Assembly (NCBI RefSeq): GCF_014193515.1
Contig: NZ_BLXX01000001.1
Coordinates: 310,001-374,000, forward strand
DNA length: 64,000 nucleotides
Reading direction: 5' to 3'
Source of the DNA: Geomonas silvestris
Lineage (GTDB): Bacteria > Desulfobacterota > Desulfuromonadia > Geobacterales > Geobacteraceae
The notes below the pieces were generated by a model, which saw only the letters and a program-made list of their open reading frames with translations, was not told where the DNA came from and ran no database searches. This document shows, piece after piece, positions 1 through 55,099 of the stretch (the stretch's first letter is position 1; each line of letters begins with the position of its first letter). The translations under genes were made by a program, and so were the position numbers.

Positions 1-1004
1 CCCTTCCCGTCAAACTGCGCTTTCGGGCTGCGGCCAGCATCGGGTCCGACTGGAGGGTAAGCGCCGATATCCGCTACCAGGGACTAAGCGACTTGTTCGC
101 AGAGCAGATTGGCATCGGCCCGCTCTCCATCAAGCCGCGTGCGGTGATAGAGGGCCTCACCCAACCGCTGCAACAGGTGCTTAGCAGCCAGGTGAACAAG
201 CAACTGAACGACAGTTTCTCCCTCAAGGCGAAACTTGCCAAAGCCTGGGAGGCCGCCCAGAAACCGATCCTTGTGGACCAGAAGCTGAACGCCTGGTTAA
301 GACTCTCGCCCCGCGAGGTCAACCTGTTCCCGCTCAGGGCGCAGAACAACCGGGTGAGCCTCGCCGTCGGCATCGTCACCTACGCCGAAGTAATCCTGGG
401 GCAGCAGCCGCAGCATGCCGCCCCGCTACTCCCGTTGCCGCCACTTAAGCTTGTTAACAGTCTCGACAGGACTTTCCGGATCGCGGTCAATGCCGACCTC
501 TACTACAAAGACCTCTGCACCGCAGCCGCCCCCTTCCTGCTCAACAAGGAGTTCAACTCCGAAGGGAAAAAGGTCGTGGTGAAGAGCTTCGAGTTGTACG
601 GCAACGGCGACAAGTTCGTCATAAAGGTCGTGACAGAGGGGTCTTTGGACGGCACCTTCTATCTCACCGGTAAGCCGCGTTTTGATTCCCGCAAGAACGT
701 CCTGTCCGTCGAAGAGGTCGATTTCGACCTGCAGACCAAGAGCCTTTTGTTGCAGTCTGCCGACTGGCTTTTGCACAGCACCATCAGGGATCGCATCCAA
801 GAGAGGCTGAACCTCGACCTCTCAAAGCAACTGGAGGAGTCGCGGGAGTTGGCGGGCAAGGCGATTGCACAGCGCAAACTCCTGGACGAGGTGAGTCTCA
901 AAGGGGAGATCAAGAGTTTGAAGCTGGGAGAGTTCCTGCTGGGGCCGGACAGGATTTCCCTGCAGGCCGTAGCGGAGGGAGAATCGGCGCTGGTACTCCA
1001 TTAA
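1..1004 (+). CDS. DUF4403-like protein, 3' part only
   Basis: The reading frame is already open at the left window edge (first full codon at position 3), so the N-terminus lies outside. About 333 C-terminal residues are visible, and the TTG at 93 is not the real start. The protein is rich in alternating hydrophobic/polar beta-type segments and ends in Leu-His. The overall pattern, including repeated segments around 'RTFRIAVNADLYYK' and 'DLQTKSLLLQSADWLLH', fits the DUF4403 family of predicted envelope proteins; this is pattern recognition, not a search. Function is unknown. No membrane segment is visible in this part. The gene converges on the glycosyltransferase gene at 1590, and no strong terminator follows its stop. 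Confidence 0.6.
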   Translation, partial: LPVKLRFRAAASIGSDWRVSADIRYQGLSDLFAEQIGIGPLSIKPRAVIEGLTQPLQQVLSSQVNKQLNDSFSLKAKLAKAWEAAQKPILVDQKLNAWLRLSPREVNLFPLRAQNNRVSLAVGIVTYAEVILGQQPQHAAPLLPLPPLKLVNSLDRTFRIAVNADLYYKDLCTAAAPFLLNKEFNSEGKKVVVKSFELYGNGDKFVIKVVTEGSLDGTFYLTGKPRFDSRKNVLSVEEVDFDLQTKSLLLQSADWLLHSTIRDRIQERLNLDLSKQLEESRELAGKAIAQRKLLDEVSLKGEIKSLKLGEFLLGPDRISLQAVAEGESALVLH

Positions 1005-1110
1005 CCGGTCGCGGATAGCGGAGACAAAAGGAAGAGGAGGGAGAGGCTAAACCGTACCGACCACCCCAGAAGCGTTGCCCCCTGGAACCCGAGGTCGCCG
1101 CTACCGGCGG

Positions 1111-1488
1111 GTGGCCGTCTTTATTAGCGAGGTGGTGGTCTTTATTAGCGAGGTGGTGGTCGTTATTAGCGAAGGGGTGGTCGCTAATAGCGAGGGGGTG
1201 GTCGTTATTAGCGAAGGGGTGGTCGTTATTAGCGAAGGGGTGGTCGCTATTAGCGAGGGGGTGGTCGTAATTAGCGGAGGGGTAGTCGCTAATAACGAAG
1301 GGGTGGTCGTTATTAGCGAAGGGGTGGTCGCTAATTACGAAGGGCTGGTCCTTATTAGCGGAGGGGTGGTCGCTAATTACGAAGGGGTAGTCGTTATTAG
1401 CGGAGGGGTGGTCGCTAATTACGAAGGGGTAGTCGTTATTAGCGGAGGGGTGGTCCTTATTAGCGAGGGGGTGGTCGCTAATTACGGG
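1111..1488. repeat. Minisatellite: 18 tandem 21-bp units with near-palindromic cores
   Basis: Eighteen contiguous units of exactly 21 bp lie in the convergent gap between two gene 3' ends. Each unit has a variable 11-bp near-palindromic core of the type CGYTAWTWRCG (for example CGCTAATTACG, CGTTATTAGCG, CGTAATTAGCG) separated by a conserved spacer, AAGGGGTGGT. Units 13+14 (1363-1404) and 15+16 (1405-1446) are an exact 42-bp duplication. A degenerate partial unit lies at 1091-1110, and the spacer recurs in reverse orientation near 1058-1067 (CGACCACCCC). The period equals two DNA helical turns. Because 21 is divisible by three, the array is open in a plus-strand frame (repeating V-V-V-I-S-E-G) and in a minus-strand frame, so openness is not evidence for coding. 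Confidence 0.95.
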
Positions 1489-1548
1489 GCGTCCCCGCTA
1501 TTTGCGGCATGGCCGGCGGTAGTAGTGTGCGAGGATTTCAAAACGGGT

Positions 1549-1570
1549 TCCTATGGTGTCGACCATAGGA
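1549..1570. terminator. Hairpin downstream of the GT9 gene, possible terminator
   Basis: TCCTATGGT and ACCATAGGA form a perfect 9-bp stem around a 4-base loop. It starts 20 bases past the stop codon of the glycosyltransferase gene read on the minus strand. Only a weak T-run (CGTTTTG) follows on that strand, so termination efficiency is uncertain. It marks the 3' end of the long polysaccharide block. Confidence 0.45.
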
Positions 1571-1589
1571 CATCGAGTTTGATGCCGTT

Positions 1590-2660
1590 TCAGGACAAAA
1601 GTTCCTGTGCAGCCGCGATGACCTCCGCGACGCTGATTTCCGAGAGGCAGCGGGCGCCGTCCGGGCAATGCGGTGTGGTGCCGAAGCGGGTACAGGGAGA
1701 ACAGGCGAGGTGAAGATTTACGATGCGGTGATCCAGGCCGCGGGGTCCCCATTTCGCCTCGATGCCGGGACCGAAGAGCGACACGGTGGGAATACCCAGG
1801 CCAACCGCAATATGAAGAATCCCGGAGTCTCCCGATATTAGCAGACGGCTTTGCGCGATCACAGCCGCGCTGTCGACGAGACTGGTCCGGCCGGCTAAAT
1901 TGAGGCCGCCGCAACCTGCGACGATGGTCTCCCCTTCCCCCCGATCACCAGGCCCCCCAACCACCGCAATACGGCATCCTGCCAAAGTGAGCCTCTGAGC
2001 CAGTTCGGCAAAGCGCGCAGCCCCCCAACGCCGTTCCGGAATGCTGGCGCCGGGGAAAACTGTGACCAGCCGAGGGTCGTGTCCGCCACCGAGCAGCGCT
2101 TCGGCCCGGGAAGCGGCCTCACCGGGGATAGTAAGGAAGGGAACTGACAGGCTTTCGGGTGCGCTGATCCCCAGGGGAGCCAAGAGATTGAAAAAGCTGA
2201 AGGCTTCGTAGTCGTCCTGCGAGTAAGGGACGCCGTGGGAGAAGAGGCGTTTGCGGTCATTGGTGGCGTAGCCGATGGAGAGCGGAGCCCGGGCAAGCCT
2301 GGCCACCACCGCCGAGAGCCGGTGCCACTGTTCCGTATCGATGATCACATCGAAGCCGCCGCGTAGCACTTCGAGGAGATCGGCCGGACGGTCGTAGAGC
2401 AGCAGGCGATCCACCTGTGGGCAGAGCCGAAAGGCCCCGCCATTACGCCGCTCCGCCAAAAGGGTCAGTTCCGCCTCAGGGAAGCGCTTCTTTAGTGCAA
2501 CAAGGGCAGGTGCCAACAACACCGCATCCCCGATCCCTCCCGGGCGGATGACCAGTATCCGGCGCACCACCTCGAGCGGGCGAGAAGCTGCTGCCGGCAG
2601 GCAGGCAGCAGCCCCAGCCCCCAGCAGTTGGTCCAGTAGTTTAAGAAGCTTCGTCTGCAT
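1590..2660 (-). CDS. Glycosyltransferase family 9 (heptosyltransferase-like)
   Basis: 356 residues, normal for GT9/WaaF-type enzymes, which transfer ADP-heptose or related sugars to LPS core or other surface glycans in the cytoplasm. Visible features are the N-terminal 'ILVIRPGGIGDAVLLAPAL' Rossmann segment (about residues 35-53), the family motif 'VFPGASIPERRW' near 200, the nucleotide-sugar loop 'ISGDSGILHIAVGLGIPTVSLFGP' near 270, and a C-terminal cysteine cluster (CSPC ... HC ... C) common in GT9 members. It is the last gene of the minus-strand polysaccharide block, 60 bp after the methyltransferase gene. Donor and acceptor cannot be told from sequence; in this locus it could act on a repeat-unit or adaptor sugar rather than on LPS core. 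Confidence 0.85.
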   Translation of the reverse strand: MQTKLLKLLDQLLGAGAAACLPAAASRPLEVVRRILVIRPGGIGDAVLLAPALVALKKRFPEAELTLLAERRNGGAFRLCPQVDRLLLYDRPADLLEVLRGGFDVIIDTEQWHRLSAVVARLARAPLSIGYATNDRKRLFSHGVPYSQDDYEAFSFFNLLAPLGISAPESLSVPFLTIPGEAASRAEALLGGGHDPRLVTVFPGASIPERRWGAARFAELAQRLTLAGCRIAVVGGPGDRGEGETIVAGCGGLNLAGRTSLVDSAAVIAQSRLLISGDSGILHIAVGLGIPTVSLFGPGIEAKWGPRGLDHRIVNLHLACSPCTRFGTTPHCPDGARCLSEISVAEVIAAAQELLS

Positions 2661-4829: not shown

Positions 4830-6287
4830 TTAACCGACTGCGGAGTCGCGAACGGGTTCTGCTGCTCCAGACAAACCTCCACTTCCGGCATGTCTCGTGC
4901 CAGCGTTCCAGACACTGGGCAACGCTGCTACTGCACTGATAGGTCCCAGCACCAAGGAAAGCGCCACTTTCCAGATTGCCCAAAGGTTCTGATCAGAGGC
5001 GAAAAACCGCTCTTTGACCGGAGCGTAGGTGTAATGTTTTGTCAACAAAAAGGCGTAGGGAGCAGAAAGCCCCTCACCGGCAGTAATCGTCACCCCGTAT
5101 CCCCCGCAAAGCACCTTGATTGCAGTACGAATTTTGCTTGAAAGGGGATCCTTGAGGATGTCAAAGCAGAGATGGCTCACGTTGAGGAAATCGAAGATAG
5201 GCGCACGCTCCCGGTTCACCCCAAGAGTAATATGAGCCCCCGGTGCCACCTCTCGTACCTTGGTAACCGTCTGCACCACCTCGTCGAAGGTACCGCTCGC
5301 GTAGACCAAAACCCGCGACAACCGAGTTGCAAGCTCCTGTTCGGCAACGGGCTGCGATTCAGCGACTGTCAGGCCTGCCGACAGCCGGCCTTTGCCAAAC
5401 CTGCCGAGCAGGAAATCTTCAACCGACGAACGGATCAGACGGGACCAGGCCCGATGCCCCAGCAGGTTCACGTATACCATTGAGCTGAACGCGTTGTTCA
5501 ATACCCCCAAATAAGCAATAAGGCGTCCGATTCCACTGGTGTGCTTGCTGGCGGTGAGGAGGCCGTTTCTGAAGTCGTAATAGATGATTCCAGGGTTGCA
5601 CCCTTTTTCCACACCGTGATAGACCTTCGAAGCGACAACGGCGACCACCCGGAGGCCCTGCCGCTTCATGCGCAGGCAAAACTCGATATCGTCCCAGTGC
5701 AGAAAGTACCGATCGTCCATGACGCCGACCTCCCGCGCTGTCGTGGCGCGGACCAGAGCAGAGCATGCGGCGACGTAATCCACATCGATGATCCTGCTGT
5801 CATCCTGGTCATTCAGACGGGCGTAGCGCAGGTTGGGTGCCCACGTGCCGGAGCGCCAGTGAACAAACCCTCCAGCCTCGACCATGAGCGATTTGTCTTC
5901 GGGGCTCATAATGCACGAACCGGCAGCACCAATGGTGCCATCCGCCTCCATCGCTCGCACCAACTCGGTCAGGGTATAGGGAGTTACCTCTGCGTCGTTG
6001 TCGAGGAGCCAGAGGTAATCCTGCTGTAAGACGTTCAGGGCGTAGCGCATGCCGGTATTGAAGCCGCCAGTGCCGCCCAGGTTCTCAGCGTTTTCCAGAA
6101 GGGTTACCGACAGGGGGTGCGCTTTTATGGCGGGAACCGAGTCGTCGGTGGAGGCGTTGTCCACCACGACGATACTGTAGTTCTTGTAGGCGATGCCCTG
6201 GAGCGAATCGAGGAGATTGATAACGTCTGCCCGCTTGTTCCAGTTTACAACGATGATGGTTACCTTCGGTTCAGGCAGGGTCGACAT
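4830..6287 (-). CDS. GT2 family glycosyltransferase (galactofuranosyl/rhamnosyl-transferase-like)
   Basis: 485 residues. The GT-A core shows 'VTIIVVNWNKRADVINLL' (about 9-26), 'VVVDNASTDDS', the metal-binding 'WLLDNDAEV' and the acceptor-side 'HWDDIEFCLRM', the WDD-E pattern of the GlfT2/rhamnosyltransferase subgroup. After residue ~290 there is a long C-terminal extension with one hydrophobic segment near the end ('VALSLVLGPISAVAAL'), suggesting membrane association. It overlaps the upstream GT4 gene by 17 bp and lies 66 bp from the mutase gene, whose product UDP-Galf is its most economical donor. That link is inference from adjacency. The C-terminal ~190 residues match no domain I recognise. 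Confidence 0.8.
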   Translation of the reverse strand: MSTLPEPKVTIIVVNWNKRADVINLLDSLQGIAYKNYSIVVVDNASTDDSVPAIKAHPLSVTLLENAENLGGTGGFNTGMRYALNVLQQDYLWLLDNDAEVTPYTLTELVRAMEADGTIGAAGSCIMSPEDKSLMVEAGGFVHWRSGTWAPNLRYARLNDQDDSRIIDVDYVAACSALVRATTAREVGVMDDRYFLHWDDIEFCLRMKRQGLRVVAVVASKVYHGVEKGCNPGIIYYDFRNGLLTASKHTSGIGRLIAYLGVLNNAFSSMVYVNLLGHRAWSRLIRSSVEDFLLGRFGKGRLSAGLTVAESQPVAEQELATRLSRVLVYASGTFDEVVQTVTKVREVAPGAHITLGVNRERAPIFDFLNVSHLCFDILKDPLSSKIRTAIKVLCGGYGVTITAGEGLSAPYAFLLTKHYTYAPVKERFFASDQNLWAIWKVALSLVLGPISAVAALPSVWNAGTRHAGSGGLSGAAEPVRDSAVG

Positions 6288-29757: not shown

Positions 29758-29820
29758 TCCCCTAACGGTTGGCCGGATCGGCCGGGTGGACGGATCGGGC
29801 AGGTGGTCTTTGCAGCTCTG

Positions 29821-54882: not shown

Positions 54883-54898
54883 AAAAACCTAAGAGTCC

Positions 54899-55099
54899 GT
54901 TCTACGTTCTATGTTAAAACCAAGAACCTGTTCTATGTTCTACGTTCTATGCTCGACGTTAGGTTGGGTCAAGCTGACAGAGGTCTAGGTCGATTCATCC
55001 TGTCAAACACATTCCAAGGTTCAGGTTTCAACGCAGAACGTAGAACCTGGAACTTAGCACAGCTTGTATGGTTTCAACGTAGAACCTAGAACATAGAAC
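54899..55099. repeat. Opposed GTTCTAY heptad arrays between dppB- and binding-protein genes
   Basis: Direct-orientation heptads occur at 54899-54915 and 54930-54951 (GTTCTAT, GTTCTAC, GTTCTAT). Their reverse complements occur at 55033-55053 and 55079-55099 (GTAGAAC, CTAGAAC, ATAGAAC). The two halves face each other and could fold into a long imperfect stem. No gene is seen in this 222-bp gap. Confidence 0.85.

Follow-up and report, generated by a model that had tools for sequence, protein, structure and literature searches.

Why Geomonas silvestris should carry 18 near-palindromic 21-bp units, head to tail, between the facing 3′ ends of two genes is the question raised by the window, by which we mean the whole stretch of 64,000 nucleotides analysed here. 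We find that this array is one member of a dispersed family of gene-linked arrays with a period of 20–21 bp, in which the period is kept and the sequence is not. What such arrays do is a matter of probabilities, and we weigh the readings below.

The window array and its home locus

The array is intergenic and its 18 units follow one another without insertions or deletions, as the preliminary description had stated. TRF reports it at 1117–1477, both as a period of 21 with 17.2 copies (score 422) and as a period of 42 with 8.6 copies (score 476). The cores had been said to stay within CGYTAWTWRCG, which holds for the 13 of 18 that match it exactly and fails for the other five (two CTTTATTAGCG, two CCTTATTAGCG and one CGTAATTAGCG); the spacer, described as near-fixed, is indeed nearly invariant when the units are compared, and the 21-bp period supports the proposed equivalence to two helical turns. 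A recent 42-bp duplication had also been noted, and it is exact, units 13–14 (1363–1404) being identical to units 15–16 (1405–1446). The features of this part of the window are as follows.

1..1004, + strand: DUF4403 gene, starting outside the window and with its stop at 1004; left neighbour, reading towards the array
1111..1488, + strand: tandem array of 18 × 21 bp, roughly GGGGTGGTCGYTAWTWRCGRR; an orphan (satellite) copy of the array family
1363..1446, + strand: exact duplication of a 42-bp unit pair, the latest expansion step visible
1489..1530, + strand: degenerate unit or units, GCGTCCCCGCTATTTGCGGCA..., at the right array edge, which by eye appears to be decayed
1590..2660, − strand: glycosyltransferase family 9 (GT9) gene, the right neighbour, convergent

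The array does not have the unique spacers and identical repeats of a CRISPR, its spacer being the constant part. TRF finds only two further repeats in the window, at 54884–54946 (31 bp × 2.0) and 29766–29806 (17 bp × 2.4). In another genus (L186:117–320; G024 C43) the GT9 ortholog is followed on its 3′ side by an unrelated 21-bp array with a GGAATGCATTCC core, placed on the same side of GT9 as the window array and with the contig start just beyond.

A search of the whole genome for the unit, which had been suggested with the first account of the array, locates its relatives. With up to three mismatches allowed, the unit pattern has 52 forward matches in the 5.1 Mb and 36 contigs, compared with five for the reversed control pattern, and 48 of the 52 fall into just three places, namely the window and 0.5 kb each at the end of contig C6 and at the start of contig C15, which excludes chance. 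Compared with the window array, identity is 87% for the C15 stretch, 86% for the C6 stretch and 80% for an array in Geomonas limicola (G008). An IS3-type element, named by eye, spans the C6 end and the C15 start, with an OrfA-like start on C6 and an OrfB-like end on C15; its terminal inverted repeats agree in 23 of 28 positions, and it is bordered by TGG on either side. We therefore read the C6 and C15 stretches, with 14 (C6) and 17 (C15) units with good cores, as halves of one home array of roughly 30 units, split by the insertion. It is at this element that the assembly breaks (L036 end and L037 start; G000 C6:285.1k and C15:1–130).

The home array has a tRNA-Leu(gag) gene to its left and, to its right and convergent with it, a gene for a protein of about 219 amino acids, referred to here as the C15 protein. 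Geomonas limicola shares the order of the locus, with tRNA-Leu(gag), the array, an ortholog of the C15 gene and tRNA-Leu(cag), and in its genome the place corresponding to that of the window array is without such an array. Because the unit is at home beside the C15 gene, and because the G. limicola counterpart of the window locus has no array, the window array is a satellite without a gene. A pattern scan of genome contigs returned at least 80 stretches, and among those examined only the G. limicola stretch carries a family gene.

The linked gene family and its arrays

Proteins of this family are about 220 amino acids long, with N-terminal helices, a basic linker and a C-terminal fibronectin-III (FN3) domain; the median pI is 8.7, the linker is basic across the alignment, and no signal peptide is evident by eye. 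The C-terminal half matches FN3 domains both in a PDB profile search and in a Foldseek search with a single-sequence AF2 model (mean pLDDT 62.6), in which the N-terminal half is helical and joined to FN3 by a low-confidence linker; the Foldseek matches examined for this model include no DNA-binding fold. Pfam gives a weak fn3 match, below its cut-off, and leaves the N-terminal part unmatched; eight members have no informative NCBIfam match, none of five members matches an anti-phage defence system in PADLOC, and the PHROG phage families yield nothing informative, with weak tail-protein matches for three of five members. The C15 protein has no match in 72,556 plasmid records, and carriage on plasmids was accordingly set aside. 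The idea that c-di-GMP riboswitches control FN3-type genes, prompted by excerpts of a Geobacter bemidjiensis paper (PMC2996986), was rejected, as the three c-di-GMP-I riboswitch matches found, in two of 13 loci (L204:158–249, L204:3939–4030 and L214:3478–3553), are none of them 5′ of a family gene.

Orthologs of the C15 protein (58–71%) are present in three further Geobacteraceae genomes (G008, G016 and G024). Those of G016 and G024 lie in different gene contexts, each with a related but degenerate array on the 3′ side, so the C15-type gene and its array have either moved as a pair or been retained as one. All 19 genomes of the genus that were searched have more distant paralogs, as do three of 29 other genomes of the taxonomic family, and the Geomonas silvestris genome has at least 15 members. 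Sixty-four members were confirmed with an HMM derived from three of them, 60 regions and four home-type loci contributing one each. The genome searches for members, in Geomonas silvestris as in the other groups described below, scored at most 15 or at most 10 candidates per genome, so the member counts they give are lower bounds. These 64 comprise all listed matches of nine genomes (61), one of 10 for G016 and two of six for G001.

In this sample, which was picked after the association was already visible, TRF reports a repeat of at least three copies in the 1 kb that follows the gene on its 3′ side for 37 of 64 members, every one with a period of 20–21 bp or close to a multiple of it; in the 1 kb on the 5′ side it does so for five of 64 (four of 21 bp and one of 9 bp). 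A lag scan (lags 12–30, best 200-bp window within an 800-bp flank, identity threshold 0.45) gives a similar picture: 39 of 64 3′ flanks reach the threshold, and the best lag is 21 (26 flanks) or 20 (13 flanks) in every one of them, while six of 64 5′ flanks do so, all at lag 21. Among control segments from the same regions 26 of 503 reach 0.45, eight of them with lag 21, and the comparison of 39/64 with 8/503 gives a Fisher p of 3e-35; when each cluster at 60% identity is reduced to a single representative, 21 of 37 have a 3′ array (p = 1e-21). The remaining 25 of 64 members have no 3′ array at the 0.45 threshold. Base periods of 40 arrays by TRF are 21.0 (19), 20.5 (9), 20.0 (7) and 20.25–21.5 (5), although composite periods were divided by the nearest multiple of 20.7, which pulls long ones towards that value, and the lag scan is the fair test.

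The sequence of the unit turns over faster than the protein while the step of 20–21 bp stays. None of 741 pairs with less than 50% protein identity share more than 10% of their array 8-mers, whereas nine of 13 pairs with at least 70% identity share array words on the same strand; some close pairs, however, share none, as in L227 and L228, whose proteins are 81% identical and whose arrays have no 8-mers in common. The units also show more dyad symmetry than mononucleotide shuffles, with a mean z of 1.14 over 58 arrays (orthologous arrays among them not being independent) and p < 0.05 in 15 of the 58.

Core variants in the window array had been taken to compensate one another, and the array to be actively expanding under selection on the palindrome. 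At the two symmetric variable core positions of 63 units (18 from the window, 14 from C6, 17 from C15 and 14 from G. limicola, and thus not independent), we count T/G in 28, C/G in 24, C/A in 11 and T/A in none. As the T/A double change is what a compensated palindrome would be expected to give, compensatory core evolution is not supported; the recent tandem expansion stands, and the palindrome-preserving compensation does not. At most one half is changed at these positions, which would suit a dimer tolerating one weak half-site, although with shared ancestry among the units this is a weak test.

Arrays without the gene also occur in Geomonas silvestris. Across 864 kb of its genome, made up of the window plus 40 segments of 20 kb each, there are eight array loci with periods of 20, 21, 41 or 62 bp, of which one adjoins a family gene and two lie at contig starts, with their neighbourhood off the contig; 400 kb from two relatives without a family match contain no array of the 20–21 bp type, compared with 3.7 expected at the Geomonas silvestris rate. 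When nine home units were compared with the whole genome, satellites were found for five and none for four, and no family gene was found in the pieces examined around them.

Window: satellite of the C6/C15 home unit
C8:116k and C21:42k: satellites of the second home unit
C1:187k and C6:74k: satellites of the third home unit
C4:172k: satellite of the fourth home unit; weak (73%), yet a clear 41-bp array
C3:65k: satellite of the fifth home unit, whose home adjoins a truncated family gene

A unit shared by C1:382k and the C3 start has no known home, and the relative G003 has a satellite for one of seven home units. The L193 array piece, a heptamer-type repeat matching throughout the genome, was left out of the satellite count. 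A heptamer-type repeat (CCCGTTCATCCC...) with many genomic copies is present at G000 C7:148515–148627 (query positions 352–464) and constitutes a separate repeat family. We also note a truncated family gene with an adjoining 21-bp array of 18.8 units (L275:4475–4930 and 5138–5531), the unit of which forms a satellite at L338:5263–5657, and a 17-unit 21-bp array (L320:8153–8512) between sensor-kinase-like and NtrC-type regulator genes (by eye) on the same strand, with a twin at the C3 start (L335:142–523) and its home gene not found.

The family extends beyond the Geobacteraceae. In its own phylum one of 198 genomes drawn, that of Geomonas silvestris itself, matches at E <= 1e-6, and in other groups two of 31 genomes have matches, one of them full-length, in a Chitinophagaceae MAG. 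Within the order of that MAG, Chitinophagales, 29 of 198 genomes match. TRF arrays with a period of at least 18 bp are present on the 5′ side at 10 of 31 Bacteroidota loci and on the 3′ side at one, many of these loci being short or partial. Wider Chitinophagales loci were taken from 15 regions, one per genome, and from two places in the first MAG. Of 16 testable members there, 11 reach 0.45 on the 5′ side with a best lag of 21 or 22; none of 17 reaches it on the 3′ side, where TRF adds the one array (L388). These 17 were picked after the 10/31 result, so that 11/16 is not blind and 10/31 is the plainer figure. For many Chitinophagales family genes a contig start is no more than about 1.5 kb away, as would happen if the arrays broke assemblies.

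In the phylum of a Blastocatellia MAG, which we take to be Acidobacteriota, three of 297 genomes match, and one has four full-length members, all with a best 5′ lag of 21 and, in three cases, a TRF array. For the phylum to which a Fuerstiella MAG belongs, presumably Planctomycetota, four of 294 genomes match, and all three full-length members of one genome have strong 21-bp arrays (0.80–0.89) on the 5′ side, by lag and by TRF. The scan of these two genomes used a window of 150 bp rather than 200, and since two 3′ flanks reach 0.54–0.55 at lag 30, the acidobacterial loci L423 (0.51) and L427 (0.55, without a TRF array) are weak. The counts of four and three leave out the partial matches L424, L428, L263, L432 (which has a 5′ lag of 21 at 0.51) and L434, as well as L430, with a 5′ flank of 170 bp, and L431, with no 21-bp lag and a 44-bp repeat overlapping the frame. 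The association of gene and array is present in four lineages. In the Geomonas group the array is on the 3′ side of the gene, and in Bacteroidota, Acidobacteriota and Planctomycetota it is on the 5′ side.

Competing readings of the arrays

What calls for explanation is thus an array with its home locus, an association that recurs in four lineages, a period that is kept while the sequence turns over, and the satellites. The reading we prefer, although we would put it somewhat below an even chance, is that the arrays are DNA platforms for protein assembly, and that the window array is a satellite, lacking the gene, of a system in which gene and array go together. Next to each gene for a helical–FN3 protein of about 220 amino acids there would be a tandem array of its own, with a period of 20–21 bp; slippage or unequal exchange would enlarge and homogenise such arrays, and their units would also seed arrays at other intergenic loci. 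With its many sites spaced by two helical turns, and so all on the same face of the DNA, each array would allow a protein to assemble cooperatively. This would most likely be the linked protein, acting as dimers, and Rep proteins on iterons and partition proteins on arrays of centromere sites would be parallels. For the protein of the C15 home locus, the window satellite would provide one more place at which to assemble or be titrated.

Several observations point this way. A period kept through sequence turnover suggests DNA sites two helical turns apart, and a two-turn step would place the units on one face of the helix; a gene beside its own array suits a self-contained binding pair, and the dyad symmetry of many units suits dimers of the linked protein. 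The high pI of the proteins and their basic linker are counted in favour as well. The protein-nucleating site offered as an option in the preliminary description therefore remains a live reading, and its interpretation as a whole is partly supported. Other observations count against a platform. The unrelated units of L227 and L228 are not what strict protein–site pairing predicts, and the IS3-type element suggests that an unbroken home array is not strictly needed. We also count against it that no DNA-binding fold was recognised, that 25 of 64 members are without a 3′ array, that G003 has satellites for one of seven units, that dyad symmetry reaches p < 0.05 in 15 of 58 arrays, and that the G. 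limicola window locus lacks the array.

Nearly as likely as the platform is that the arrays are selfish or neutral minisatellites, in which some locus-bound process (slippage, or a mobile cassette of gene and array) makes repeats of about 20–21 bp that have no function, with satellites as stray copies lengthened by slippage. The exact 42-bp duplication in the window array, the turnover of units ahead of the protein, the degenerate arrays of G016 and G024, the tolerated insertion in the home array and the empty G. limicola window locus all agree with this. A slipped minisatellite was among the options raised earlier, and slippage does fit the growth of the array; it leaves the gene link and the fixed period unexplained. 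Neutral slippage does not easily account for the fact that each of the 39 3′ flanks above the threshold, unrelated in sequence, has its best lag at 20 or 21, nor for arrays being tied to a single gene family across four lineages, nor for the excess of dyad symmetry.

We consider it rather unlikely that the array acts as RNA, transcribed into tandem hairpins that serve as a terminator or stability element or that hold the linked protein, as in type III toxin-antitoxin systems. Both strands of the window array fold much better than shuffles (z of −9.3 and −13.8), and arrays adjoin the gene, on its 5′ side in three groups. However, these very low values are largely forced by tandem self-complementary units, and against tiled shuffled units, which is the fair null, the excess over 56 arrays is modest and equal on the two strands (mean z of −1.08 and −1.13), as expected of DNA symmetry. 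An RNA would also give no evident reason for a period of 20–21 nt; the arrays follow the gene in the Geomonas group and precede it in the other groups, and nine gene-less arrays that we examined sit between genes of all orientations. The covariance models of Rfam 15 have no match at E<=1 in window positions 900–1700, and the RNA 3′ structure proposed in the first account is accordingly weak.

Regulatory sites for the DUF4403 and GT9 neighbours, such as those bound by a classical regulator, are very improbable; the sites are multiple and near-palindromic, but they lie between the convergent 3′ ends of these genes, where promoter control had already been judged unlikely, and are absent from the G. 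limicola counterpart. A coding repeat, namely a heptapeptide-repeat protein read through a 21-bp unit that is a multiple of three, has next to no chance and is rejected for the window array, because although ORF 1075–1713 runs open through the array and the C15 half is open on both strands, the G. limicola home array of related unit has stops in all three frames of the corresponding strand, five of them in the homologous frame (that strand alone having been translated), and many family arrays have 20- or 41-bp units.

If the platform reading is taken further, it leads to a picture that we think on the doubtful side: a widespread two-part chromosomal system of fast-diversifying helical–FN3 proteins, each with its own array of dyad sites spaced by two helical turns, on which it would form a one-faced filament or cluster. 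Selection would act on geometry and not on letters, pairs would be mutually orthogonal within a genome, and satellites would be sites acting in trans or parasites. Most DNA sites are conserved in their letters, and a gene family in four bacterial lineages tied to DNA that keeps its spacing and not its sequence is an unusual signature. Should the protein bind the array, nature would have supplied a library of orthogonal protein–array pairs that could serve chromosome tagging and assembly, and a case in which to study selection on DNA geometry alone; should it not, one would still have to explain why a minisatellite of fixed period goes with a gene family.

Prior work and known systems

Intergenic repeats of this sort have been noticed before. 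Excerpts of the G. bemidjiensis genome paper (PMC2996986) report intergenic direct repeats of 6 to 42 nt throughout the genome, which may include 20–21 bp arrays, and multicopy intergenic sequences are described in excerpts of that paper and of one on G. metallireducens (PMC2700814); in these excerpts neither a link to a gene family nor a fixed 20–21 bp period is given. The link between gene and array and the kept period were not found in the parts of the open-access literature covered, most subscription papers and all preprints lying outside this scope. The scattered 'intergenic direct repeats' of Geobacter-type genomes thereby become one testable system.

Four known systems each share one trait with the arrays described here, and for none of them did we find every defining feature. 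In REP/RAYT systems a transposase gene (Y1) is flanked by palindromic repeats that are also dispersed without the gene, and the likeness lies in gene-flanking repeats that also occur without it; here, however, the arrays are tandem and their sequence is free, and the linked gene has no Y1 or transposase match in Pfam (six members). In type III toxin-antitoxin systems (ToxIN) a tandem repeat lies beside a protein gene, the repeat RNA being the antitoxin and the toxin a ToxN-type RNase. Our repeats likewise adjoin a gene, 5′ of it in three groups, but those of the Geomonas group are 3′, folding shows no strand preference, and six members have no ToxN-type match in Pfam.

Partition centromeres such as sopC (with SopB) and parC (with ParR) are tandem arrays on which a protein assembles, and sopC units are dyad-symmetric, as are many of ours; the linked protein here differs in being helical with FN3, and gene-less satellites occur elsewhere in the genome. 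Plasmid iterons, finally, are private arrays of sites about two helical turns apart beside the gene for a Rep initiator, with a unit that differs between replicons. Here the arrays are on chromosomal contigs, with many paralogs per genome and often 10–30 units, and the linked proteins have no Rep initiator match in Pfam (six members) or NCBIfam (eight). In their geometry and setting, the home arrays, unlike the window satellite, nonetheless resemble iterons: they too are private, have a spacing of about two turns, lie beside their own protein gene and vary in unit sequence.
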